The notes below the pieces were generated by a model. It was not told the origin of the DNA. It made no database searches and saw only the letters and a list, made by a program, of their open reading frames with translations. 64,000 bases of DNA from a virus. Position 1 is the stretch's first letter; each line of letters starts with the position of its first letter. The stretch spans positions 186,001 through 250,000 of IMG/VR virus record IMGVR_UViG_3300023174_005338; one strand, 5' to 3'. Shown here in pieces: positions 10,612 through 52,629 of the stretch. The position numbers and the translations under genes are program-made.

Positions 10612-10677
10612 ATGTGGTTGATATTTTTTGCCTTTATGGCCATAGTCATTTGTTATGGCATCATGTGGTTAAACTAA
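10612..10677 (+). CDS. Tiny hydrophobic membrane peptide, 21 aa
   Basis: It starts one base after the previous stop and consists almost wholly of one predicted membrane span (WLIFFAFMAIVICYGIMWL) with an Asn at the end. AAAGG lies about 13 bases upstream. Such micro-membrane peptides in phages can be holin-like or membrane-protein modulators, but no function can be stated. Two further peptides of the same size follow. Confidence 0.5.
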   Translation: MWLIFFAFMAIVICYGIMWLN

Positions 10678-10696
10678 CATCTGGACGAACAATGAA

Positions 10697-10765
10697 ATGG
10701 AACAAGATTACAGTTTTGCCATTGGTGTAGTTGTGGTAGCTGTTATGTTCTTATTGATTTTATAG
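10697..10765 (+). CDS. Tiny hydrophobic membrane peptide, 22 aa
   Basis: Short acidic N-terminus (MEQDYS) followed by a membrane span (FAIGVVVVAVMFLLIL) that runs to the stop. An ATG 5 bases upstream in another frame gives only a 12 aa peptide, so 10697 is preferred. The ribosome site is weak. Same layout as its neighbours. Confidence 0.45.
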   Translation: MEQDYSFAIGVVVVAVMFLLIL

Positions 10766-10768
10766 TTT

Positions 10769-10814: not shown

Positions 10815-10880
10815 ATGGAAGAATTTCAAAAACGGACATTGATTCTGGTGTTGTTGGCTTTCCATGCCATGACTATGTAG
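10815..10880 (+). CDS. Tiny hydrophobic peptide, 21 aa
   Basis: A clear AGGAG lies 6 bases upstream of the ATG, which supports translation. The charged start MEEFQKRT is followed by LILVLLAFHAMTM, a short membrane-like segment. It ends 6 bases before the -35 box of the tmRNA promoter. Third in a row of micro-peptides. Confidence 0.55.
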   Translation: MEEFQKRTLILVLLAFHAMTM

Positions 10881-10886
10881 AATTGG

Positions 10887-10915
10887 TTGACACATAAATA
10901 GGTGTGTCGTATAAT
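10887..10915 (+). promoter_or_regulatory. tmRNA promoter, TTGACA-N17-TATAAT with embedded CATAAATA
   Basis: Perfect sigma70 hexamers at 10887-10892 and 10910-10915 with a 17-base spacer. The spacer itself begins with CATAAATA (10893-10900), a T4-late-like box. Start of transcription is expected near 10922. Confidence 0.85.
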
Positions 10916-10921
10916 AACGAT

Positions 10922-11177
10922 ATTGTTGTAATTCCTTCCAAGTGAAGGCGCTGTGGACCTGGGTGCAACTCCCAGCATCTCCACCCAAGTGTATTGTCTA
11001 GTATGTTTGGGCGGGGATGAATTAGGATCGACATGGTGAGCTAGTGCGGACGGCAACAGGCAAGGCGAAGGACCTAATCCTAGCAACTCTATTAAATGCA
11101 AACGCATCTAATGACGAGACCTTTGCCTTAGCGGCATGATCTCCGGGGCAACTATGCCTTGTGACCCAAACTAGTTC
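10922..11177 (+). ncRNA. ssrA: Permuted (two-piece) tmRNA
   Basis: The acceptor piece comes first: T arm CTGGG-TGCAACT-CCCAG (10959-10975), then CATCTCC (10976-10982) and A-C-C. After an intervening segment the coding piece starts with GGGGATG (11013-11019), which pairs with CATCTCC over 7 bp (one G-U), followed by GGATCGAC, close to the canonical GGATTCGAC. The tag frame at 11098-11139 reads ANASNDETFALAA and stop, ending in the protease signal ALAA. tmRNA with SmpB rescues stalled ribosomes. The gene order (3' acceptor part before 5' part) is the permuted form known from alphaproteobacteria, some cyanobacteria and betaproteobacteria. The 5' and 3' limits and the internal excision sites are estimates. 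Confidence 0.9.
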
Positions 11178-11178
11178 A

Positions 11179-11206
11179 AAAAAAGCGACAGAAATGTCGC
11201 TTTTTT
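11179..11206 (+). terminator. Rho-independent terminator of tmRNA
   Basis: A-tract, GCGACA (11185-11190), GAAA tetraloop, TGTCGC (11195-11200), then six T. Perfect stem with extra A-T pairs below. Confidence 0.95.
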
Positions 11207-11227
11207 GTTGACCTATGTCTACAATTA

Positions 11228-11234
11228 CTAAATA
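11228..11234 (+). promoter_or_regulatory. Late-type box CTAAATA before porin
   Basis: CTAAATA lies 47 bases before the porin ATG, just after the tmRNA terminator. A small hairpin (TGAGA-AATC-TCTCA) lies in the 5' leader. A TTGACC 13 bases upstream of CTAAATA could add a weak sigma70-type -35. Confidence 0.45.
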
Positions 11235-11281
11235 CTGGGTTGAGAAATCTCTCAGCATTCTTTTAAAAGGAAAATTCAAGC

Positions 11282-12403
11282 ATGAAAAAACTACTAGCAA
11301 CTATGTTGTTATCTCTTGGCGTAGCCACTTTGGCTCAAGCTCAGAGTTCAGTTACCATTTATGGTATCTTGGATGTGGGTTTCAGTGATAGAAATCTCAA
11401 AGGTTCTCCAGCAACAGCCACAAACACTCTCAACTCCAATCAGATTGGATCCAGCTACGAAACCGCTAGCCGTCTTGGTTTTCGAGGCACAGAGGATTTG
11501 GGCGGCGGCACTTCTGCATTCTTTACCATTGAAACTGGCCTGACACCAACCAGCTCCACAGTAAGCACATTCAATAATCGTCAAACATTTATTGGTCTTG
11601 GACAAAAAGGACTGGGTAATGTAGCCGTTGGTACACAGTATGGTCCAATCCACAAGGCTGTTGGTGTAACTGATCCAGGCCAGTACAACGGAGTTATTGG
11701 TTCGGTGATCTATCCAGCTGCTGGCACCGACGGTGGCCAAGCAAGTGTTGATGCGGCCTACACGATTCGTTTCGCGAATAGCGTGACAGCAACCATGGAT
11801 CGTCGTGCAGGCTTCAGTGCCAACGCGATCTACTCGCTCAACAACCAAGACAGCACCAAAACAGGTGCAACTACTGGTGGCACAGTCAACAACAACGCCT
11901 ATGGTCTTGGTGCTGACTACCTCATGGGTAAATTGTATGCTACCTTAGCATATCAAAGTGTCAAAAGCATCAACGACACATCAGCCACTGCCAGTGTTAG
12001 CTCGGCATTTGTTGGTACCAACACCACAGACAGCCAGCTTTATGCAGGTGCCACATATGATTTGGCCAAGGTCAAATTGTTTGCAGGTTACACTGATCGC
12101 AAGATCCAGAGCAATTTGAACAGCAATGCTAGTTTGAATCGTACAGCACAGCAGATTGGTGTACGTGGTTTCGTTACCAAGAAAGTTGAAGGTTGGGCTT
12201 CTGTGGGCAACGGCAAGTACAATGCATTTGGTACAAACCAAGCCACAGCCAACTTCACAGCTTACCAAGTTGGTAGCAACTACTGGATGAGCAAGCGCAC
12301 GAACTTGTATGCTATCGTAGGTAGCACACAAACTTCAAGCACAAGCCAAACCGGCGCACTCAGTGGCAACCAGTATGCCTTAGGCATGCGTCACACATTC
12401 TGA
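11282..12403 (+). CDS. Outer-membrane general porin (Burkholderiales type)
   Basis: The 373 aa protein has a classic signal peptide (MKKLLATMLLSLGVATLAQA, cleavage after AQA), mature start QSSVTIYGILDVGF typical of Gram-negative porins of betaproteobacteria, the RLGFRGTEDLGGG block, a Gly-rich constriction-loop region and a C-terminal phenylalanine (MRHTF) used by the BAM assembly machinery. It forms trimeric diffusion pores in the outer membrane. RBS AAAAGGAAA. It is a stand-alone unit between the tmRNA terminator and its own terminator. A phage-borne porin could change host permeability or block receptor use by other phages (lambdoid phage porin genes are a precedent); that role is inference. 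Confidence 0.93.
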   Translation: MKKLLATMLLSLGVATLAQAQSSVTIYGILDVGFSDRNLKGSPATATNTLNSNQIGSSYETASRLGFRGTEDLGGGTSAFFTIETGLTPTSSTVSTFNNRQTFIGLGQKGLGNVAVGTQYGPIHKAVGVTDPGQYNGVIGSVIYPAAGTDGGQASVDAAYTIRFANSVTATMDRRAGFSANAIYSLNNQDSTKTGATTGGTVNNNAYGLGADYLMGKLYATLAYQSVKSINDTSATASVSSAFVGTNTTDSQLYAGATYDLAKVKLFAGYTDRKIQSNLNSNASLNRTAQQIGVRGFVTKKVEGWASVGNGKYNAFGTNQATANFTAYQVGSNYWMSKRTNLYAIVGSTQTSSTSQTGALSGNQYALGMRHTF

Positions 12404-19050: not shown

Positions 19051-19130
19051 ACCCCGGTGGCGCAATTTTTGGTAGACGCACTCTCCTCAGAAGGGAGCTG
19101 TTGAAGGTTCGAATCCTTCCCGGGGTACCA
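19051..19130 (+). tRNA. tRNA with CAG anticodon (Leu), short variable loop
   Basis: Acceptor ACCCCGG/CCGGGGT, discriminator A, encoded CCA, D arm GCG/CGC with GGTAGA, anticodon stem CTCTC/GGGAG with loop CTCAGAA (anticodon CAG), T arm GAAGG/CCTTC. The variable region is only 5 bases (CTGTT), whereas bacterial tRNA-Leu is normally class II with a long variable arm. Identity by anticodon is Leu. Confidence 0.88.
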
Positions 19131-41882: not shown

Positions 41883-42412
41883 AAATAAAAATAACTGCTG
41901 AGTCTGTAGGCGTCTGCTGGCACAGGATTAAACATACCATGCCATTGTAAGGGCTGGCTACCGTCAGGATCAAGATGATTCAACATGATGTAGCCTGAAT
42001 TGGGCACACTGTCAAATTGATGTTTCAAACTATTTGTGTTTTTAAAATGATAAAACCCAGTTCCGTACTGGTCACTGGGCATTATCCAATATAGTTGCAT
42101 GGCATTAGGTAAATGCCCGTCGGTGTGCATGCTACAAGTAAATCCAGGTTCGTCCAACCACCAGTGCCCGTGGCAGGATTGAAATTCAGTGCCCAGGCTC
42201 TGATTGATTGTTGGCAAACACTTTTCTATGTATCGATTGACTTGTCTGACTCGTGAGTCATCATTTGTAATTTTTCTACGGGGCCAATTTTCTTGAAGAT
42301 TTTCTTTTTGCCAAGGCAGTTCAGTCCATTGTATTACTAAAATTTCATTCAATTGCTCTTGGGGCAACAGATCACTCACATGCCATAAACGATGATCAAT
42401 TTGTTCAATCAT
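41873..42412 (-). CDS. 2OG-Fe(II) oxygenase-like protein (second)
   Basis: ATG at 42412 overlaps the carbamoyltransferase stop (ATGA). SMHTDGHLPNAMQLYWIM gives His-x-Asp, and LQWHGMFNPVPADAYRLSSY the distal His and Arg, as in the DSBH oxygenase fold. 179 aa. Last gene of the long minus-strand operon; it might hydroxylate the product of that operon. Confidence 0.74.
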   Translation of the reverse strand: MIEQIDHRLWHVSDLLPQEQLNEILVIQWTELPWQKENLQENWPRRKITNDDSRVRQVNRYIEKCLPTINQSLGTEFQSCHGHWWLDEPGFTCSMHTDGHLPNAMQLYWIMPSDQYGTGFYHFKNTNSLKHQFDSVPNSGYIMLNHLDPDGSQPLQWHGMFNPVPADAYRLSSYFYFYK

Positions 42413-43878
42413 CAACTGAAAACCTTAACTCCATACTTTTGTTCAAATCTATCAGCGTCAGCACGATCGTTGATCATAGGCTCGCCTCTAATGTTGAGAC
42501 TGGTATTCAGCAACATGGGACATCCAGTGGCTTCATACCAGGCCTCTAAGAGCGATCTAATGCCTGAGCCGTCAGACGCAACAGTCTGTACTCGGCTAGT
42601 GTTATCCACATGACAGATAGCAGGGTATAGGTCAGGACGGCGGCAATTTGCGACTGACTGCATATAAGGACTGCTATGCCAACCGCGGGGCATATGAAAA
42701 AGTTCATGCACATGCTCTGCCAGGACAACCGGCGCAAACGGTCTAAACTTTTGCCTACGTTTGATCTCATTGACTTGATCCTTTATATCTGATCCTCGGG
42801 GATCGGCGAGGAGACTTCGATTTCCAAGGGCTCGGGGTCCAAATTCTGCTCGACCACTAGCGACACCGACGATTCTATCACTTTGTAAATGATCAACGAG
42901 GGCATCAACAGGATACGTTCCTGAGATTGCATGGCCAAGGAACGCATTCCGCCAGTGGAGGCGTCTTCCATGGGCCAGTGCGGCAGCACCAAGGCTGTTG
43001 CCAGCATCGCCAGGACAAGGCATGATCCAAATGTTTTCAAAATATTCACCGAGTTTTCTATTAGCAAGACAGTTCAAAGCCACGCCGCCCTGATAGACTA
43101 GATTAGAACTCCAGCCAAATTCTTGGGCACGACGCATAACACTATATATCAATTCTTCTGTTAAAACCTGGGCACTTGCGGCAATATCTTCGTTGGATGC
43201 AGACCGCAACCAGTCAGGCTCAATGCCTATGTGTAGATTGTCTTCCAGCAAGGCCCGGCATTCTTCAACGTAACATGGCTGTCCGTAGGCACTCATGCCC
43301 ATGGTGATGTATTCTTCATCTAGGGGGTGTAGGCCAATGCGCTGAGTAATCGCACTATAAAACAGCCCGATGCTCCTGGGATAAGTTTGGCTCCAAAGTT
43401 TCTTATAACATGCTCGATTTGTTGCGTTATATTCTGCTCCCCATATCGAGATGGTATCAAACTCGCCTATGGCATCTACGATCACACAAGTGGCACGATC
43501 GTAGGGGCTGGTTTGAAAACCTGCAGCCGCATGGCACAGGTGATGACTGTAAGTTTTTATCTGTCCGGGCGGATGTTGCAACCATGAGCCCAATTGATTC
43601 TTTAATATCTGCTTGACAGTCACATTGGACCAATCTATACCTTGTCCTGACACAAAATTACGTGCTTGTTTTAACCAAGGACGTTCATAATATGCAATGG
43701 TGTCTATGTCGTATTCACAGAATTCTGTCAATAATTCTGGACAAAGATTGGCATCGTTTTTCTTTTTTGAATATCGTTCGCTGTGACCGGCAAATACAAT
43801 TTCACCGTCGCTGCGTATGAGCGTGGCAGCTGCGTCATGAAATCCAGCACTGAGTCCCAGTGTGTACTGATGCTTCAT
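42412..43878 (-). CDS. NodU/TobZ-type carbamoyltransferase
   Basis: 488 aa, family full length is about 550-600, so slightly compact. N-terminal GLSAGFHDAAATLI and HHLCHAAAGFQ (metal and carbamoyl-adenylate site), VYQGGVALNCLANRKL, and a C-terminal YrdC-like part with AEFGPRALGNRSLLADPR and FRPFAPVV. The enzyme makes carbamoyl-adenylate from carbamoyl phosphate and ATP and transfers the carbamoyl group to a hydroxyl of a sugar or metabolite. In this operon the acceptor is likely a glycan (inference). Confidence 0.93.
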   Translation of the reverse strand: MKHQYTLGLSAGFHDAAATLIRSDGEIVFAGHSERYSKKKNDANLCPELLTEFCEYDIDTIAYYERPWLKQARNFVSGQGIDWSNVTVKQILKNQLGSWLQHPPGQIKTYSHHLCHAAAGFQTSPYDRATCVIVDAIGEFDTISIWGAEYNATNRACYKKLWSQTYPRSIGLFYSAITQRIGLHPLDEEYITMGMSAYGQPCYVEECRALLEDNLHIGIEPDWLRSASNEDIAASAQVLTEELIYSVMRRAQEFGWSSNLVYQGGVALNCLANRKLGEYFENIWIMPCPGDAGNSLGAAALAHGRRLHWRNAFLGHAISGTYPVDALVDHLQSDRIVGVASGRAEFGPRALGNRSLLADPRGSDIKDQVNEIKRRQKFRPFAPVVLAEHVHELFHMPRGWHSSPYMQSVANCRRPDLYPAICHVDNTSRVQTVASDGSGIRSLLEAWYEATGCPMLLNTSLNIRGEPMINDRADADRFEQKYGVKVFS

Positions 43879-43976
43879 TTGTAAATAAACGGGTCTCGTT
43901 TGCGAAGTTCTTTTAATTTTTTACGATAACGAATTTCTAATTTGATACGATCGATTAAGATTTTTATCCAAGACAT
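43875..43976 (-). CDS. Very small basic protein, 33 aa
   Basis: Coupled on both sides: its ATG lies inside the end of the upstream gene (43964) and its TGA overlaps the ATG of the carbamoyltransferase. Sequence is almost all Lys/Arg/Ile/Leu (IKILIDRIKLEIRYRKKLKE), ending RDPFIYK, an amphipathic basic helix. I recall similar tiny proteins in T4-like phages. Without it there would be an 85-base gap in an otherwise gapless operon. Confidence 0.6.
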   Translation of the reverse strand: MSWIKILIDRIKLEIRYRKKLKELRKRDPFIYK

Positions 43977-45019
43977 TTGATTTGTTTCTCCATGTAATCG
44001 GTGTCACTCCAGTCATATTCATACTCATCACCGGCTGTGCTGGTGCGTATGGCATGAACATTAAGATGTGTATTTAATTGATGCCAAATTTCACGATAAT
44101 CTTCTGTTCCAAAACTGCGAACAAGATCCACTTGCCCTACCTGTGGATGTCCAATGGTCAAACTCTTGTTGTTTGGGTCAATGCCATTGGCCGTTAGCCA
44201 TTCGCGGAATTCCTTTAACTGTCGGATCTGCCAGGGAAATTCACCCGGATTGTTGGCCCACTCTATGTCAAAGTCGCCCGCGGCCTCAGTCTGATTTTTG
44301 AGGCTGGTGGTTGTGAGTTCTCCTAGTCTTGAGTCACGTCCTTCGTCCTGGAACACTTCCCAGTGATGTTTGCCAACGGCTTTGTTCACACCCACATATA
44401 CTCCGCCCAGACTGCGATTGATTGTGTCAATCCCAAACAGTTCATAGTCTTCTGCATCCAACACGAATCTTGGAGCTGATAGCCAGCACATGAGTTGGCT
44501 GGGTCTTTGCCATTCAGGTGCTGTGTGTTTTTTGCGCCACGATAGCTGCCAGCTTTCAAACTCGTGACACAGGAGATTTAATTGTCTGATGTGCCAGCGT
44601 GTGGCGTTGTCGGCACGCCAGTAGTAATCGCTGATGTGTCCGCTGCTGCCTTGTAGATCTTCAAAGTATCTGTGCAGTTGATTGAAATGATCGTGATTGA
44701 CTCCGCCTCGATCATCCACACTGTTGATCATATCAAAGTGATCCGTTATATGATATCCTATGCTGGAATTGTTTATGGCCTGTATGCTGAGATTTATTTG
44801 TTCCAATAGATAAGGGCCATTTCTAGGACCGTCTGCAAATCCAAAAAAACAATAGTTCTTTTCCAAGTGATAATTATTTTGTAGAAGATTGTTCAAAGCG
44901 GCCAGCCATTTGCGACTGAGACTGTTGTCATACACGTTGACATACACACGCAACACATTGTCTGGCGTGCCTAGATCTAGCTCTACAACATCAAGCGGTA
45001 ATTGATTGGTACCAGTCAT
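43964..45019 (-). CDS. Hypothetical protein, 351 aa
   Basis: Not recognised. Rich in Trp, Asn and His; contains DRGGVNHDHFNQLHRYFEDL, SGHISDYYWRADNATRWHIR and GIDTINRSLGGVYVGVNKAV. No signal peptide or membrane segment. Overlaps the radical SAM gene upstream by 29 bases, so it probably works with that enzyme set. Confidence 0.75.
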   Translation of the reverse strand: MTGTNQLPLDVVELDLGTPDNVLRVYVNVYDNSLSRKWLAALNNLLQNNYHLEKNYCFFGFADGPRNGPYLLEQINLSIQAINNSSIGYHITDHFDMINSVDDRGGVNHDHFNQLHRYFEDLQGSSGHISDYYWRADNATRWHIRQLNLLCHEFESWQLSWRKKHTAPEWQRPSQLMCWLSAPRFVLDAEDYELFGIDTINRSLGGVYVGVNKAVGKHHWEVFQDEGRDSRLGELTTTSLKNQTEAAGDFDIEWANNPGEFPWQIRQLKEFREWLTANGIDPNNKSLTIGHPQVGQVDLVRSFGTEDYREIWHQLNTHLNVHAIRTSTAGDEYEYDWSDTDYMEKQIKCLG

Positions 45020-46298
45020 AGATATCCTGATTTGATCTTAGTATGTCGGCCATGGTATAGGAATCGCCACGTATTTGTTCTAATTTTAGCACACGACGTT
45101 TGCCTTTTGCAAGTTCTGCTTGCCATTGTTCAGGCCATTGTTCAGCGAATGTGGGTCGTTGTTTGAGTTGTAGCAACACATCTTGTAAGGCACCAGCAGG
45201 CAGTTTTGCTACCAGATTGTCTACGGTGCTGTCTAACAACGGTCTAGGCAAGGCCAAAGGACTCATAATGATATCGGGAGTAAAACTAAATATTACCTTG
45301 GCCAAGACATCCACTCCTAGCTCATCGGCTAGCTGTTGTATGTTTTCCACTTCAAACAGGCCAGGCAAGGTCAAAGTAAAGTCAATGCGCATTTGTCTGC
45401 GATGTCGAACATGTTCAAGGCCTTGTTTAAAGTTTACCAACCACCCATCGTAGGCCAGTCCTGTGCGGATGTATTCTCCTGTTTTTCCTGTTCCGTCGAG
45501 GCTGGCACAAATTTGCCAATCACGTAGATATACCAAGACATCACGGTAAAGATTACAACCACGCCAATACACGCGACTGAGATTAGTATTGTATCTTGCA
45601 TAAACATTTTTTGCATCTCCTAGTTCAATAATTCTGCGCATGTAGCGCCAGTGTTGTTCGTACATCAGTGGTTCGCCGCCCACCCAATAAACTTCTTCCA
45701 CACGATGTTGTTCCACAGCCAAGGCAAATTCAGCTTCAATCTGGCTGTCTTGATAGGCTGTGATTTGTTCGCGCACAGCGGGTTGCATCCAGGTGTTTTT
45801 GGGATTGCTCCAATCAATCATGTTGTGTTGACGTTGTTCGCTTTCCCACGCACTGGATAACATGTCTCCGCAAGTACGACATTTGAAATTACAAAGATTA
45901 CTGAATCTGTAATCCCAACTCACAGGTCGAACCCGGGTGAATCCATAGCGATCTGTAGACCTCATACATTCTTCATATTTGTGTTCAAACAATCGATTGA
46001 AATAATCTCTATATACATCAGTGTTCAATAACTTGTTGTTGCACACTTCGCATTCAGGCAATGTCTCGCCTTTCATCATTCTTAACCTCACGCTTCGCAT
46101 GTGAGGACTGTTCCAGTGTTCGTCTAGGCCAACCGGTTGATAGGTACCAGTGCCGGTGGCAGTGTCAATATACTGTTCAAAGTTTTGTGCAGGTTCTCTG
46201 CTGGCACAACACATGCGTCTTTCAGTTTGTGGACTAAGGTATGTGTGTGTCCATGGCGCCATGCACAAGGTTTCGGGTCTTTTAGCAGGGGCCGGCAT
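44991..46298 (-). CDS. Radical SAM protein, N-terminal auxiliary-Cys type (copy 1)
   Basis: 435 aa. N-terminal CMAPWTHTYLSP...MCC and a CEVC pair (residues 83-86) precede the radical SAM motif CNFKCRTC (C136, C140, C143); VGGEPLMYEQH supplies the SAM-binding GGE. So the additional iron-sulphur ligands, C-terminal in SPASM enzymes, lie before the core here. Radical SAM enzymes generate a 5'-deoxyadenosyl radical to modify peptides, sugars or other compounds. One of five tandem paralogues. Confidence 0.87.
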   Translation of the reverse strand: MPAPAKRPETLCMAPWTHTYLSPQTERRMCCASREPAQNFEQYIDTATGTGTYQPVGLDEHWNSPHMRSVRLRMMKGETLPECEVCNNKLLNTDVYRDYFNRLFEHKYEECMRSTDRYGFTRVRPVSWDYRFSNLCNFKCRTCGDMLSSAWESEQRQHNMIDWSNPKNTWMQPAVREQITAYQDSQIEAEFALAVEQHRVEEVYWVGGEPLMYEQHWRYMRRIIELGDAKNVYARYNTNLSRVYWRGCNLYRDVLVYLRDWQICASLDGTGKTGEYIRTGLAYDGWLVNFKQGLEHVRHRRQMRIDFTLTLPGLFEVENIQQLADELGVDVLAKVIFSFTPDIIMSPLALPRPLLDSTVDNLVAKLPAGALQDVLLQLKQRPTFAEQWPEQWQAELAKGKRRVLKLEQIRGDSYTMADILRSNQDIYDWYQSITA

Positions 46299-47499
46299 AT
46301 TCTATCAATTGTGCAAATTCGGGTTCCACGGTGGCAAGATTTTGTTGTCGTTTGCGATCAAGATCGGCCACTCGCATGCGCAGTATAAATCCATCTAAAC
46401 TGGCACCATTGTTCATAAAATCAACGATTTTGATAAATTCATCCTGATGTTGTTGACTGACCTGTGCCTGACCAAGTCTTTGTGTTACTGTTTGTTTGAC
46501 CGACTCGGGCAAGGTATTGATACTGAAATAGTAGGCTTCATGCATCATATTCCAATACACAAAATCAAATGACTGCGTATCGATCCACGTGGCCAGGTCT
46601 TCAAGATAGTACACATTGAACACATTCACGGTACTACATACTTGTAGTTGTATATTGCTATGGCGATCACGCATGAGCGCAAATTTGTTTATATTTTCTA
46701 CCACCTCTGACCATACGGCATTGGTGCGTTGATATTCAAATCTAGCACCCACGTCATCGATGCTGAAAGCTATTTCCACAGTTTTAAAATGTTGCCATAC
46801 GTGCTCGGCCTGCTCAGGATACTGTGTGCCGTTGGTATTGTAGTGTATTTCTATGTTGCGAGCTAGACCGCGATCCACCAGGCGTTGCAACAGGTCAAAG
46901 TGTTCTTGTATCATGAATGGTTCACCACCAGTAAACTCGATGTATCTGATCTGATCTGATACTTGTTCAATCTCCTGCCAGAATGTGGGATTCTCTCTGG
47001 GCCAGGCACCTGCCCGCAACATTTGATAGTGATGATTGCTTTTGCGATCTTCGTCAGGTCCTAGGTTGGCCAGTTCTTCTGTGGCAAAGGTGCTTGAGCT
47101 CCAGCTACCACAGATACGGCATTTAAGATTACATATATTGCCCAATTTTAAATCTAAAAACATCAAAGGTTCGGCATCTAATGTCCAGTCTGTCACAGGT
47201 AACATGTGCTTGAGTCTGTCCAAGGTGTGCATGCGTTTGCTAGTACGGCCTGCACGTTCTTCTCTCCAGCACTTGCGGCATGTTTGTGGTTGTTCACCAT
47301 CAATAAACTGTTGTCTTAATCTGCGCATACTATGGCTATTTTGTATGGTGGCAAACTTGGCAGTGGCCAGATTAAACTTTTCTCCTGAGTTATCTACTAT
47401 TTCTTCTTCGGCCAAGCAACAAGGTCTCACAGTGCCAACGGGACTGGTTTCCAAGCTGACCCAAGGCAACACACAAAATTTATTGTGAGGTATTTTCAT
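46282..47499 (-). CDS. Radical SAM protein, N-terminal auxiliary-Cys type (copy 2)
   Basis: 405 aa. FCVLPWVSLETSPVGTVRPC, CC at 27-28, CRKC at 74-77, then CNLKCRIC (C123, C127, C130) and EFTGGEPFMIQEH. Closest in layout to copies 1 and 3. Its start is ATGA-coupled to copy 3 and its end overlaps copy 1, so the enzymes are made together. Confidence 0.88.
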   Translation of the reverse strand: MKIPHNKFCVLPWVSLETSPVGTVRPCCLAEEEIVDNSGEKFNLATAKFATIQNSHSMRRLRQQFIDGEQPQTCRKCWREERAGRTSKRMHTLDRLKHMLPVTDWTLDAEPLMFLDLKLGNICNLKCRICGSWSSSTFATEELANLGPDEDRKSNHHYQMLRAGAWPRENPTFWQEIEQVSDQIRYIEFTGGEPFMIQEHFDLLQRLVDRGLARNIEIHYNTNGTQYPEQAEHVWQHFKTVEIAFSIDDVGARFEYQRTNAVWSEVVENINKFALMRDRHSNIQLQVCSTVNVFNVYYLEDLATWIDTQSFDFVYWNMMHEAYYFSINTLPESVKQTVTQRLGQAQVSQQHQDEFIKIVDFMNNGASLDGFILRMRVADLDRKRQQNLATVEPEFAQLIEYAGPC

Positions 47500-48848
47500 A
47501 ATTGTTTTAAAATTCTATGTTGTCTTCCGGCTGGTGCTCGAGTTGATTCTGGTCTATACTGCATGATCGCTTGCAATTCTGGAACCACATCAATCAATTG
47601 TTCATTGCGACACCAGTCAAGATCATCCACAGTGCGCCAAAAATCTGGCAGTAGATGTTGATTGTTCGTGGCCATCATGAACTCTATGGCTCCACGAAAT
47701 CCGCCCACAGCTCTTTGTATGGTATCAATAGGTTGGAGCCAGGCAATGTGATCTTCAAAATCCTGTTTGAATTGCTGTTTGATTTCTGGCGGCAACATGT
47801 CTATGCGATAGTTCTGAGGACCTTGCAGGATATTCAAGTTGAAATCCTTGGCCTCAATAAATCCTGATTCCACCATGTAGCGATGAAAACGAGTAAAGTT
47901 CCAGATGTTCATCATGCTAAGAGTAGGACTGATCATGAAATCTATGTGCGGACATTCTCTTTTGAGATCACGTATGTTTTGTTCTACTTTGTCCCAGTTG
48001 GTGCCTGATCTTATAACCTCAGCTCTGGCCCCCATGTCATCCAAGCTGGCAGCAACACAAACATTCGGAAAGTGTTTCCATAATTCTAACACACTTTCTC
48101 TTTTGTAGTTTAAATCATTGAGATTGGTATTGTAGATCAATCGCACATTGGTATTGCCTTTTTCAATCAGCAGTTTAAGAATGCGATTGTGTTCTTCCAT
48201 GATCAAAGGTTCGCCACCGGCAAAGTATATCTGTTCCAGGTGTGGAATGTGCTCTTGCATTTGTTCCCATACATCTTCTTCATGGCGCCCAGCAAAACTC
48301 ACACGTGGACGCAATTCTTTGCCCCAGAGTTTGACATCATCATCATACCACCGGCTGCTGAATATACTGCCACAACTGCGACATTTTAATTGACAGATGT
48401 TGCTGAATCTCACGTCCCAGTAGTGCAATTGAAAATCTGGGTAGGTTCCGTCGGGTAAGGTTTGATCTACACTGTCTATGAACTGTGCAAAGTTTTTGTT
48501 GCTGTTGTTACGCATGCTGGCAAAACCTGCGGCTTCTTGTTCATAGCAATCAGCACACTCTCGACAGGGCCGGTCATCCAACATGTTACGACGCATTTCA
48601 CGCATGGGCTCATCATTCCAAATTTCACGCATGGTCTTTTCTTTGAAGTTGCCCACTGGATGTTTGGCTACTCCCAAGCAACAAGGATAAGCACGACCGT
48701 CGGGCCAGGCATGCAAATGTATCCAAGGCAACATGCAGAACGAGTCCGAATCCATGAGTCGGTGACGTTGTTGTTCGGTAAGATCTTCTAGTTTGACGTA
48801 GCTGGGAACTCGGTCATTCCAGTTATATTTGCCTAATATTTTGCTCAT
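47496..48848 (-). CDS. Radical SAM protein, N-terminal auxiliary-Cys type (copy 3)
   Basis: 450 aa from ATG 48848, which overlaps the upstream stop. FCMLPWIHLHAWPDGRAYPC, CC, and CRECADCYEQE before the core motif CQLKCRSC (C152, C156, C159) and YFAGGEPLIMEEHNRI. The N-terminal block looks like a typical twitch/SPASM cluster site. Confidence 0.88.
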   Translation of the reverse strand: MSKILGKYNWNDRVPSYVKLEDLTEQQRHRLMDSDSFCMLPWIHLHAWPDGRAYPCCLGVAKHPVGNFKEKTMREIWNDEPMREMRRNMLDDRPCRECADCYEQEAAGFASMRNNSNKNFAQFIDSVDQTLPDGTYPDFQLHYWDVRFSNICQLKCRSCGSIFSSRWYDDDVKLWGKELRPRVSFAGRHEEDVWEQMQEHIPHLEQIYFAGGEPLIMEEHNRILKLLIEKGNTNVRLIYNTNLNDLNYKRESVLELWKHFPNVCVAASLDDMGARAEVIRSGTNWDKVEQNIRDLKRECPHIDFMISPTLSMMNIWNFTRFHRYMVESGFIEAKDFNLNILQGPQNYRIDMLPPEIKQQFKQDFEDHIAWLQPIDTIQRAVGGFRGAIEFMMATNNQHLLPDFWRTVDDLDWCRNEQLIDVVPELQAIMQYRPESTRAPAGRQHRILKQL

Positions 48849-50182
48849 AATGTATCGTACCATTCTTTCAGCACAGGAAATGTCTCCGTAAAGTTTTTGT
48901 TTCTACGCTGATCGTATTGTGTATAAAACTGTCGGAAATCGTTGAGTAGTTTAGGCATGTCAAAGGCTTCACTGTGTGGAGTTTTCACTTGGTCTAGGTA
49001 TGCTATCAATCGCTGAGTGTGATTGACCTCATGTTCGTGCATGTAATCTTGATTGCGATGTTTGTCTAACCACATGATCAAACGATTACGATAATATAAC
49101 TTCAAATGCTCAGGCAAGACCAATGAGCTTTGAAAACTAGGAAATCTTAGAATATTCAGGGTAAAGCTCACACGTTCACGCCCATAGACCTTTTTCAATC
49201 GCACCAATTGATCTAAAAACGTGTCCAGGCTGTCTAAACACAAGGCATTGATGGTGCACATGACATGAACAGCACGTATGTGATCATGCTCCAAGAGTTC
49301 TTGCGCATTGTGCATCCAAAGATCATAGTCTAGCCCGTCTCTGATGTATTCGGCCTGGGTGCCGTGGGCTTCATTGCTGGTATAAATTTCCAAGTGTGGT
49401 ATATCCTTTGTTTTTTCCACAAACTCCAACAACTTGAGACGATCCATGCCTAGATTTGAGTTGATGGCCAGGCGTGTGGAACTTTTGCCTTTGTTGGTCT
49501 TGAACCAGTCAATCAGCCGCCACAGTTCACCGCTCATGGTAGGCTCGCCGCCGGTTATGCGGAGTTCTTGTAAGGTCTTGTGTAGATCGGATTCCCACCA
49601 GGCAAAAAATGCATCAACATAGGGATTTGATTCGCCAAATCGATACACTTGAGCACTGTCATGTTCGTGTGTGAAATGATTACGACCATCGCTGACAAGA
49701 TTTGTATAGGCGCCGTTGTTTCGGATATCCTTGACCCAGGTGCTGCTGAAAGCAGGATTACAATAACTGCAAGCAAACTGGCAGGTGCGATCAAACGCTA
49801 TTTCAAGAGTACGTAGATTCACGTCGTCTTGTGGCGGCGTGGCAAATGCCTGATCAAGGGCCTCTAAGGGATATATTTTGCTTTTGTAAACACGGTCACT
49901 GACAGCATCCACTCCCATGTCTTCAATCTTCCAGCAGTACTCACAGCCAGGCGGACGTTCACCGGTCAGCATTTGCACACGGTCTTGTTTCTTTTGTTTG
50001 GTGTTGTGTATAGCACTGGGATTGGTCTTGATTTCTTCTCGATCAATGGCATGTGCCGGTGGATGATGGCAACTGGTAGTCTGTCCTGATCCCAACCATA
50101 TGGTAGCATTGTACCACTTGGCCGCACAGAAGCTGGCACTTTTAGTGTCCAGGACTTGTTGTTTAAACTCCAGATCGTTCAT
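48845..50182 (-). CDS. Radical SAM protein, N-terminal auxiliary-Cys type (copy 4)
   Basis: 445 aa from ATG 50182. N-terminal FCAAKWYNATIWLGSG, TSCHHPP and CEYCWKIED, then the core CQFACSYC (C134, C138, C141), RITGGEPTMSGELW. Copies 4 and 5 share CHHPP/CYHPP and HNT blocks and form a subgroup. Overlaps the glycosyltransferase-like gene by 20 bases. Confidence 0.88.
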   Translation of the reverse strand: MNDLEFKQQVLDTKSASFCAAKWYNATIWLGSGQTTSCHHPPAHAIDREEIKTNPSAIHNTKQKKQDRVQMLTGERPPGCEYCWKIEDMGVDAVSDRVYKSKIYPLEALDQAFATPPQDDVNLRTLEIAFDRTCQFACSYCNPAFSSTWVKDIRNNGAYTNLVSDGRNHFTHEHDSAQVYRFGESNPYVDAFFAWWESDLHKTLQELRITGGEPTMSGELWRLIDWFKTNKGKSSTRLAINSNLGMDRLKLLEFVEKTKDIPHLEIYTSNEAHGTQAEYIRDGLDYDLWMHNAQELLEHDHIRAVHVMCTINALCLDSLDTFLDQLVRLKKVYGRERVSFTLNILRFPSFQSSLVLPEHLKLYYRNRLIMWLDKHRNQDYMHEHEVNHTQRLIAYLDQVKTPHSEAFDMPKLLNDFRQFYTQYDQRRNKNFTETFPVLKEWYDTL

Positions 50183-51230
50183 TGATATATTGGGCAAACT
50201 GTTGTGGGAACTCTTTACGAACTTGCAGACGAAGTTCTGCCAAGCGTTGTTGATTGTATTTACATTTATCTTCTGCAGCCGTTATAAAACTTGATAAATC
50301 TTGCCGGCAAAGATCGTTGACCACGGTCACTATGCGGGCCAGGCGTTCTTGATTGTTGTCAATTTGATCAAATGATTCATCTATCACGTGACCAAAGGTT
50401 TGAAATCCTAACTTGTGTATATCACGATAGTAGCCTCGGTTGGCTACGGCTATCCACGGGTGTCCAATTGCTACTGGCTTCCATATCTTTTCTGTTCTAA
50501 AACTGTACGGATAATCAAATACAGTCTCAGTTACTAGGCTAAAGTAAGTGTCGAGATATGGCCTAGGATTAAGATATATTTCGCCCCAATCGTTGTTGAA
50601 CAATGCCGGTTTGGCATATCCTGACATAGACATGGTAGTATTTTGTTTGTAAAAATCAAATTCATAACAAGCGGGTAAAAGTTTGATATCACCTGCTGCC
50701 GAGTCCAAGTTGGTCCACAGAGCTTGATCCAACACGTTGGCCAGATTGTCTAACAACTGTCGACGATGACGCCGTCCACGACCATTCAGACACAAAAACT
50801 TGTAAGGTCGCGAATCTGACCATTGATCCTTGTACTGCTGTATGGCCAAGTAGTTCTCACTGTAGTCAAGAATCTTGGGCATGAAGTTTTCGTAGTAAAG
50901 ATAAGGTATATCCGATTGCATGTGCCCACCCGAGATGATCAAGATACGACCTTGCTGGACCAGTTCTTGTATGCCCAGGCCTTGTATTTGCCGGAGCATG
51001 GTGTCGCTGCCTTCGGCTGGATTGCCCAGTATGGGTAGTATGGTGCCTTGAGTGGCTAGGTCACGTATGCGATCAATGTTGGCGTTGAACTGTTGACGAC
51101 TGATAAGATAGATTGCTCCGGGTATCACCTTGTGCGTGGCAAAGTCATAGAAAGATTCATCTTGCCAGGCTCTGGTGAACTCCTTGACTTCACAACATTG
51201 ATCAACAACCAGCTTACGATTGCCGAGCAT
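50163..51230 (-). CDS. Glycosyltransferase-like protein with T-E-K motif (copy 3)
   Basis: 355 aa from ATG 51230. SFRTEKIWKPVAIGHPWIAV and GFQTFGHVIDESFDQIDNN match the C-terminal block of 38620 and 39707. It sits between radical SAM copies 4 and 5, overlapping both, which ties the radical chemistry to glycan transfer. Confidence 0.72.
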   Translation of the reverse strand: MLGNRKLVVDQCCEVKEFTRAWQDESFYDFATHKVIPGAIYLISRQQFNANIDRIRDLATQGTILPILGNPAEGSDTMLRQIQGLGIQELVQQGRILIISGGHMQSDIPYLYYENFMPKILDYSENYLAIQQYKDQWSDSRPYKFLCLNGRGRRHRRQLLDNLANVLDQALWTNLDSAAGDIKLLPACYEFDFYKQNTTMSMSGYAKPALFNNDWGEIYLNPRPYLDTYFSLVTETVFDYPYSFRTEKIWKPVAIGHPWIAVANRGYYRDIHKLGFQTFGHVIDESFDQIDNNQERLARIVTVVNDLCRQDLSSFITAAEDKCKYNQQRLAELRLQVRKEFPQQFAQYINERSGV

Positions 51231-52629
51231 GGTACTCACATTCCGCCCACCAGGCACTCATTTCAGGAAACACAGTCAAAAAATCAGTACCGTGCCTGCG
51301 ATCTGCTTCGTTAAAAAAGCGATAAAAGTCTGCTTTGTTTTGTTTTATATATGTGGGATCCAGTTGTTGGCCATCACGCATCCAGGCTATGTCACGATCT
51401 AGCCTAGCTATCTCATAATCTTTGAATCCTTGGAATCTGGTGGCTTCAGTTTCTGTTTGTCGTATCATCCAGGCCCAAAGATATTCTAACTGTTCTGCAT
51501 ACGACTCGGGCAAGATTTGCAGGCTCTGCCAGGCGGGTTGGCGCAACACCGGAGTATCAAACCATACTCGTTGATAAGTCTTGCTGTAAATTTTACGCAG
51601 ACCCAGTATGCCTGCAAACAAATTTGGAAGTCCAGTAACACTTAGATTGTTCATGGTCACGATAAATGTCACACTGTTACGACCAGGAATCTCAGTAAGG
51701 AACTGATTTACTCTGTCCCACAATAAATCAAAGTTCAGGCCGTGTCTGATGTATTCGGCCTGTGAACCAAAACTGTCAAGACTGACATACTGCATGAAGT
51801 GTTCAATCCGTTCGCCCTCACACAATTGTTTGACATAGCCTAGATACTTCTGCCAAGATTTTTCATCCACGCTGAAGTTTGATGTCACGTTCAAGTGTAA
51901 ATCTGGTTTGGGATTGTCCAACACATAGTCAAACACTCGATAGGTATTTCGATCTAGTAAAGGTTCACCACCGGTCATACGGAAGTGTTCCAGTTCTGGA
52001 TATAAGGTAGGCCACCACGCCCAAAACGCATCCACATAAGGGTTTTGTTCTCTTACTGGTATAGGACGATTACGCCCAACAAAGTGGCTAGGATCATTGT
52101 GGACAGTTGAAGTAGGATATCCACCATGGGTGTTAACTTCCTGCTGCCAGGTGCTCGAAAACTGCGGACTGCAATAGCTACAAGCAAGATTACAAGCATG
52201 ATTAAAATTGACTTCGACATAACTAGGGACAACATCTTCATCTCCGATTGAATTTACTACAACATCAAAGTCCTTGGCAGCCCAGGGCTCACCACTACGG
52301 TAGTGTCTATCTGATAATTTGTTGTTATCTTCCATTGCCCAACAATAGCCGCACTCGCTAGAGCGTTCTTGCCGTAACATTATCTTACGCTGTTCTTTTT
52401 TGTGCGGAGTATTATGTAACGCACTAGGATTGTCTGCTAATAGCTCTGCAGGAATAGGGTGCAGTGGAGGATGATAACAACTGTTGTTAAGCCCTGTGGG
52501 CAAGTGTAGGCTAACCTGTTTCCATTTGGCCAAGCAGAGTGCGGGGCCAAGATTCGCCTTCATGAACTCTGCATCGCCTAGGAATTTTGATTTAAAGTCG
52601 GTTACAACTTCATCGCCTTTGTTTTGCAA
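51214..52629 (-). CDS. Radical SAM protein, N-terminal auxiliary-Cys type (copy 5; TTG start)
   Basis: 471 aa. A TTG at 52629, right after the upstream stop and preceded by GAAGG, is the best start; the first in-frame ATG would cut 22 residues. CLAKWKQVSLHLPTG, SCYHPPLHP, CGYCWAMED, then the core CNLACSYC (C146, C150, C153) and RMTGGEPLLDRNTY. Closely resembles copy 4. Confidence 0.86.
   Translation of the reverse strand: MQNKGDEVVTDFKSKFLGDAEFMKANLGPALCLAKWKQVSLHLPTGLNNSCYHPPLHPIPAELLADNPSALHNTPHKKEQRKIMLRQERSSECGYCWAMEDNNKLSDRHYRSGEPWAAKDFDVVVNSIGDEDVVPSYVEVNFNHACNLACSYCSPQFSSTWQQEVNTHGGYPTSTVHNDPSHFVGRNRPIPVREQNPYVDAFWAWWPTLYPELEHFRMTGGEPLLDRNTYRVFDYVLDNPKPDLHLNVTSNFSVDEKSWQKYLGYVKQLCEGERIEHFMQYVSLDSFGSQAEYIRHGLNFDLLWDRVNQFLTEIPGRNSVTFIVTMNNLSVTGLPNLFAGILGLRKIYSKTYQRVWFDTPVLRQPAWQSLQILPESYAEQLEYLWAWMIRQTETEATRFQGFKDYEIARLDRDIAWMRDGQQLDPTYIKQNKADFYRFFNEADRRHGTDFLTVFPEMSAWWAECEYHARQS

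Follow-up and report, generated by a model that had tools for sequence, protein, structure and literature searches.

Phage-encoded tmRNA genes, whose product releases stalled ribosomes, have been described from several groups. A tmRNA database holds 79 phage sequences (PMC11915505), and 53 of 133 unique phage tmRNA structures are two-piece, 50 of these from marine or aquatic phages; phage-borne permuted tmRNA is thus already reported (PMC9004378). The methylophage Melnitz and other phages with two-piece tmRNAs share with the gene considered here a phage location, the permuted order and a mostly aquatic setting (PMC9004378). However, Melnitz belongs to a different lineage and its tmRNA is described as alphaproteobacterial-type and linked to a glutamine riboswitch, whereas our gene comes from a PA5oct-like jumbo phage, is beta-type overall and has its own promoter and terminator, with no riboswitch above the Rfam gathering threshold within the window. 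Huge phages with both tmRNA and SmpB have been described (PMC7162821); ours is likewise a huge phage with translation-related RNA genes but its record and 14 relative records are without SmpB. The tmRNAs of mycobacteriophages (e.g. Bxz1) and of Bacillus phage G are phage ssrA genes too, from other hosts and another lineage (PMC4131195). With the families RF04321 and RF01850 our gene has in common the gene order, an acceptor stem with G3-U70, the T arm, the D-loop, the GUUGU/GCAAC helix, a tag frame and a predicted two-piece design.

What may be new are the swappable cassettes, the second tag and the coupled elbow states of the relatives; we found no description of the long tag or of cassette swapping in the open-licence literature, which lends novelty weak support. 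A giant bacterial virus carrying a complete tmRNA of its own, in a lineage with two tags, bears on the question of why phages carry tmRNA at all.

Architecture and predicted fold of the gene

The window, a 64,000-nucleotide stretch to which all coordinates below refer unless a contig is named, comprises bases 186001-250000 of a 337,119-bp IMG/VR virus record, and the gene, present there in single copy, is known from this one metagenome-assembled record. A search with cmscan gave a match to RF01850 (beta_tmRNA) at 10873-11206 on the + strand with 131.6 bits (E 7e-40, gathering score 84), the best-fitting model of the clan, and one to RF04321 (tmRNA_permuted) at 10924-11139 with 124.1 bits (gathering score 47). 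Independently, ARAGORN called a permuted tmRNA at 10894-11230 with the tag ANASNDETFALAA. These results bear out a preliminary description made from the letters of the window, which had recognized a permuted two-piece tmRNA and proposed covariance models as the check. The parts of the gene are as follows.

10887..10915, +, sigma-70-type promoter TTGACA-17-TATAAT, 12/12 consensus
10922..10985, +, acceptor piece (3' side of the tRNA-like domain, first in the gene), RF04321 match from 10924
10925..10929, +, GTTGT, closing the tRNA-like domain with GCAAC 11053-11057 (MFE fold, Rfam consensus structure)
10959..10975, +, T arm: CTGGG, loop TGCAACT, CCCAG (sequence; covariation in 39 distinct relatives)
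10976..10982, +, acceptor stem 3' strand CATCTCC, 7 bp with 11013-11019 including G3-U70 (covariation)
10986..11012, +, intervening segment, a hairpin on the acceptor stem (MFE fold of the precursor), removal expected
11013..11177, +, coding (mRNA-like) piece starting GGGGATG (Rfam match, fold), 3' end approximate
11020..11032, +, D-loop region AATTAGGATCGAC, A18-G19 state coupled to T-loop G55 (68/68 classified relatives)
11098..11139, +, tag frame ANASNDETFALAA and stop TGA (ARAGORN; relatives with ANASNDEVFALAA and ANAANDEVFALAA)
11178..11206, +, intrinsic terminator AAAAGCGACA-GAAA-TGTCGCTTTT and T run, 12-bp hairpin, -14.5 kcal/mol

The acceptor half lies 5' of the coding half, an order that rules out a one-piece or standard tmRNA, and the acceptor strands pair across the spacer. 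As anticipated for a permuted gene, the 7 bp of CATCTCC/GGGGATG form in the unconstrained MFE fold of 10922-11206, together with the T arm, the GUUGU/GCAAC helix and the hairpins of spacer and terminator, the 12-bp spacer hairpin stacking on the acceptor stem and the 12-bp terminator hairpin running into T's. When the two pieces are cofolded as separate molecules the computed binding energy of -11.1 kcal/mol is only modestly better than that with shuffled partners (-7.3 ± 3.2 kcal/mol; 16/200 equally low). The claim that the gene has its own promoter and terminator also holds up: the -35 (10887-10892) and -10 (10910-10915) boxes, 17 nt apart, form the sole 12/12 site in the 1.1 kb scanned. From the promoter position we place the 5' end of the acceptor piece near 10922. 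Its 3' end would be A73-C74-C75, so that the terminal A needs to be added. The tag frame ends in a hydrophobic C-terminus. Thus, the phage record contains an intact permuted tmRNA gene at 10922-11177.

The phage location, likewise part of the preliminary description, is supported by a Terminase_6N gene in the same record and by phage-type proteins in the window, including an exonuclease (phrog_107), an HNH endonuclease, a carbamoyltransferase and tail/virion families; QueE, an NAD synthetase and an ATPase are also encoded. Host contamination was rejected on the basis of the terminase, the phage proteins and syntenic relatives.

Covariation and coupled elbow states in relatives

Relatives were reached via the neighbouring exonuclease, the window-type tag and a second, long tag described below. 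In 39 distinct T-arm/acceptor sequences the 12 pairs contain 93 two-sided changed cells, compared with a shuffled mean of 25.7 (0/500 as high), and the signal collapses once partners are slid by one column. Only this pattern of two-sided change is informative, because full pairing in the 39 sequences, and in a set of 69, was demanded in their extraction; the acceptor helix appears in the MFE of 69/69 acceptor-plus-spacer stretches preselected in this way. Acceptor pairs 1-3, including G3-U70, are invariant in 39/39, the extraction having required that they begin GGG with C70 also acceptable; at pairs 4-7 the number of pair types is two to five. The alanine determinant G3-U70 is thus present in the window gene, and U70 in all 39 distinct relatives. 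Acceptor stems of relatives (GGGCCCG, GGGTCCG, GGGCCTG and others) depart from the usual GGGGNTG.

A tag-anchored search, with two T-loop types allowed, found a perfect 5+7 bp tRNA-like domain in 54 of 79 distinct upstream stretches, whereas shuffled stretches scored at best 7/12; many of the remaining stretches have a third T-loop type, GGC. A search of 14 long contigs of relatives, with lengths of up to 344 kb, gave an RF04321 match in every one; most had been fetched by tag pattern, and for two (L273 and L310) the exonuclease was the only bait. Both features whose loss in relatives was to count against the gene, the acceptor pairing and the tag frame, therefore persist, with compensatory changes.

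These data also bear on the idea that the gene is a passenger, i.e., a decaying remnant or attachment-site fragment of a host ssrA. While integration at tmRNA genes is frequent (PMC11915505) and in many relatives no tmRNA lies within 5 kb of the exonuclease, the gene is complete with promoter and terminator, its relatives show compensatory changes and there is no integrase-like match among ten flanking proteins scanned. We regard a passenger as exceedingly unlikely, and a prophage attachment remnant in particular was rejected since the gene is complete.

Spacer lengths range from 27 to 386 nt across relatives. The 386-nt spacer (L503, contig G498) contains a 122-codon reading frame between the tmRNA halves, preceded by AAGGAAG, with no confident Pfam match. 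A frame for an 86-residue CxxCxxCC (PF03692) protein occupies the spacer at ~3750-4010 of L265, a contig that stops before the coding piece, and at ~8835-8900 of L264 a spacer frame with AAGGAG encodes a 20-residue hydrophobic peptide. One 236-kb phage contig (G489) has two permuted tmRNAs, at 143658-143932 and 172862-173101 (L501 and L502), one with a long tag and the other apparently ending YALAA.

The D-loop of the window gene had been read as deviant, GGATCGAC being said to lack one T. The RF01850 alignment is gap-free at this position, and we have rejected a deletion. The 68 classified sequences all show one of two combinations of T-loop position 55 with D-loop position 18, namely T55/G18 in 37 of them and G55/A18 in 31, and the same two states are seen among distinct cassettes (20 and 19, respectively). 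The window gene has G55 and A18; the A-G D-loop always accompanies G55 and its unusual D-loop is therefore one of two coupled states that span two RNA pieces. Such exact coupling of 18 and 55 between two RNA pieces lets tRNA elbow pairing be tested on natural variants.

Lineage, origin and module exchange

The exonuclease of the lineage, which we take to be a freshwater one, is 54% identical to that of Pseudomonas phage PA5oct and 48% to that of Erwinia phage pEa_SNUABM_49; neither of these genomes was found to contain a permuted tmRNA. The tmRNA follows the exonuclease in approximately 14 of 40 loci with at least 3.3 kb of downstream sequence and lies elsewhere on the contig in at least 2 others, and hence is common in the lineage, yet not fixed in place.

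The preliminary description had suggested capture from a betaproteobacterial host. A recently captured, little modified host ssrA riding in the phage would account for beta_tmRNA being the best clan model, for the window gene and for most relatives tested, and for the porin-family gene, common in these bacteria, that adjoins it. However, the best long DNA matches among 399 bacterial genomes of the betaproteobacterial order reach only 68-69% identity over 147-181 nt, and the 131.6 bits of the window gene fall short of the 169-336 bits reached by cellular beta tmRNAs. Moreover, its D/T-loop pair is like that of the alphaproteobacterial genes examined, in which G55 is found; cellular beta genes examined have T55, and the A18/G55 state was not found there. 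Scanned with a TGC T-loop, genome contigs yielded for the most part standard tmRNAs from other phyla, and no close source. Given further that the gene is highly diversified inside the phage lineage, recent capture is not borne out and we consider it very unlikely. The gene looks like a member of an old, recombining phage lineage.

Comparison with individual relatives reveals the recombination. Relative to L254, the promoter and 5' arm are 99% identical, the cassette from T arm to D-loop 26%, the next block 100%, the tag 93% and the 3' hairpin 92%. With L308, in which the consensus promoter site is absent, successive blocks are 69%, 93%, 48%, 90% and 71% identical, the reverse of the L254 pattern, and mosaic blocks are seen against L335 and L272 as well. 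The promoter and 5' arm (10887-10957) are 93-94% identical in L335, L272 and L333, while the terminator hairpin is kept in relatives with its sequence replaced. Exchange takes in the T-arm/acceptor/spacer/D-loop block as a whole. In a permuted gene both acceptor strands form one continuous segment with the T arm, spacer and D-loop, which can be replaced together, and permutation may be the reason that swapping is common: the contiguous cassette suggests that a consequence of permutation is exchange of an entire folding unit by one recombination event.

Two tag types and the proposed role in ribosome rescue

The window phage has an ALAA-type tag, and the window-type form ANASNDE[TV]FALAA was found in 24 IMG/VR stretches. 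The long-type tag has 28-31 residues and ends in -AV (e.g. AKASTGEVTVSGKGVKFSARTVKAESFAV); it was found in about 86 IMG/VR stretches, on contigs of up to 344 kb, with no match in deposited phage genomes. A search of other proteins of the relatives' loci for its origin gave no convincing match. In the exonuclease-derived set, which is independent of tags, 8 loci have the long tag and 6 the short, and both types occur together with 5 of 40 distinct cassettes. Substitutions in the long-tag core (pS 0.246, pN 0.057, a ratio biased because the search pattern fixed part of the core) indicate that the tag is under purifying selection; the relation is reversed in the two other frames and a core serine codon alternates between TCN and AGT.

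Our reading, which we hold to be very probable, is that the jumbo phage has an intact permuted tmRNA gene, transcribed on its own, which would serve host-assisted ribosome rescue and which exchanges modules within its lineage. Transcription would start near 10922 and end at the terminator at 11206. The tRNA-like domain would form with its acceptor stem lengthened by the hairpin, as predicted in silico, and host tRNA-processing enzymes would excise the 27-nt spacer to leave acceptor and coding pieces joined by base pairing. Host alanyl-tRNA synthetase (via G3-U70), CCA-adding enzyme, SmpB and EF-Tu would then act on the RNA, and ribosomes stalled in infection would be rescued with A-ANASNDETFALAA, a ClpXP-type tag, appended. 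The modules exchanged would be the 5' arm, the T-arm/acceptor/spacer/D-loop cassette, the pseudoknot region, the tag and the terminator. Use during infection, also raised in the preliminary description, is plausible, and on this reading the gene would be expressed, its RNA matured in two pieces, charged and used for tagging, to the benefit of the phage.

As smpB (PF01668) was not found in the phage's own record or in the 14 relative contigs, the window tmRNA would depend on the host. That it would draw on a host pool of SmpB also fits a decoy or regulatory role, in which the RNA would titrate SmpB or compete with the host's tmRNA without itself rescuing ribosomes; mycobacteriophage DS6A has a molecule with the tRNA domain only for which such a role has been discussed (PMC4131195). 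A decoy would need no tag, however. The window gene has an intact tag frame, and that of long-tag relatives is under purifying selection, so that we view such a role as very unlikely and prefer ribosome rescue.

The -AV end of the long tag matters because, in E. coli, degradation is slower with tag variants that end in AAV than with LAA (PMC9382460). It is conceivable, and we put it forward tentatively, that the permuted order made the tmRNAs of the lineage interchangeable cassettes and that in many of them a phage-specific -AV tag replaced the ALAA degron, altering the fate of rescued proteins and turning host quality control to phage use. If so, rescued proteins bearing the -AV tag would meet slower, different or no proteolysis. 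Two very different tags at the same locus, on interchangeable backbones, allow a direct comparison of the role of the tag in infection.

Several minor observations concern the surroundings of the gene. Directly after the tmRNA lies a Gram-negative porin (11282-12403, +; Porin_4, E 2.4e-36) with a signal-peptide-like start; it has one IMG/VR relative, in L326 (84%), its nearest bacterial porins are 41-51% identical and deposited phage genomes gave no match. The gene after the tmRNA in L502 and L505 also starts like a secreted outer-membrane protein. Ahead of the porin start, at 11239-11274, a hairpin GTTGAGAAATCTCTCAGC is followed by ATTCTTTTAAAAGGAAA, and L254 and L505 have the same layout with stems altered yet still pairing. 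Very short hydrophobic reading frames lie between tRNA-Met and the tmRNA (10614-10766, +), comparable to frames upstream of the tmRNA in L260 and similar relatives. Farther away, a tRNA was detected by the Rfam model at 19051-19127 (+; 50.2 bits) without an ARAGORN listing, and the products of a minus-strand gene run at 42412-52629 include a Nol-like carbamoyltransferase and three or more radical SAM proteins.
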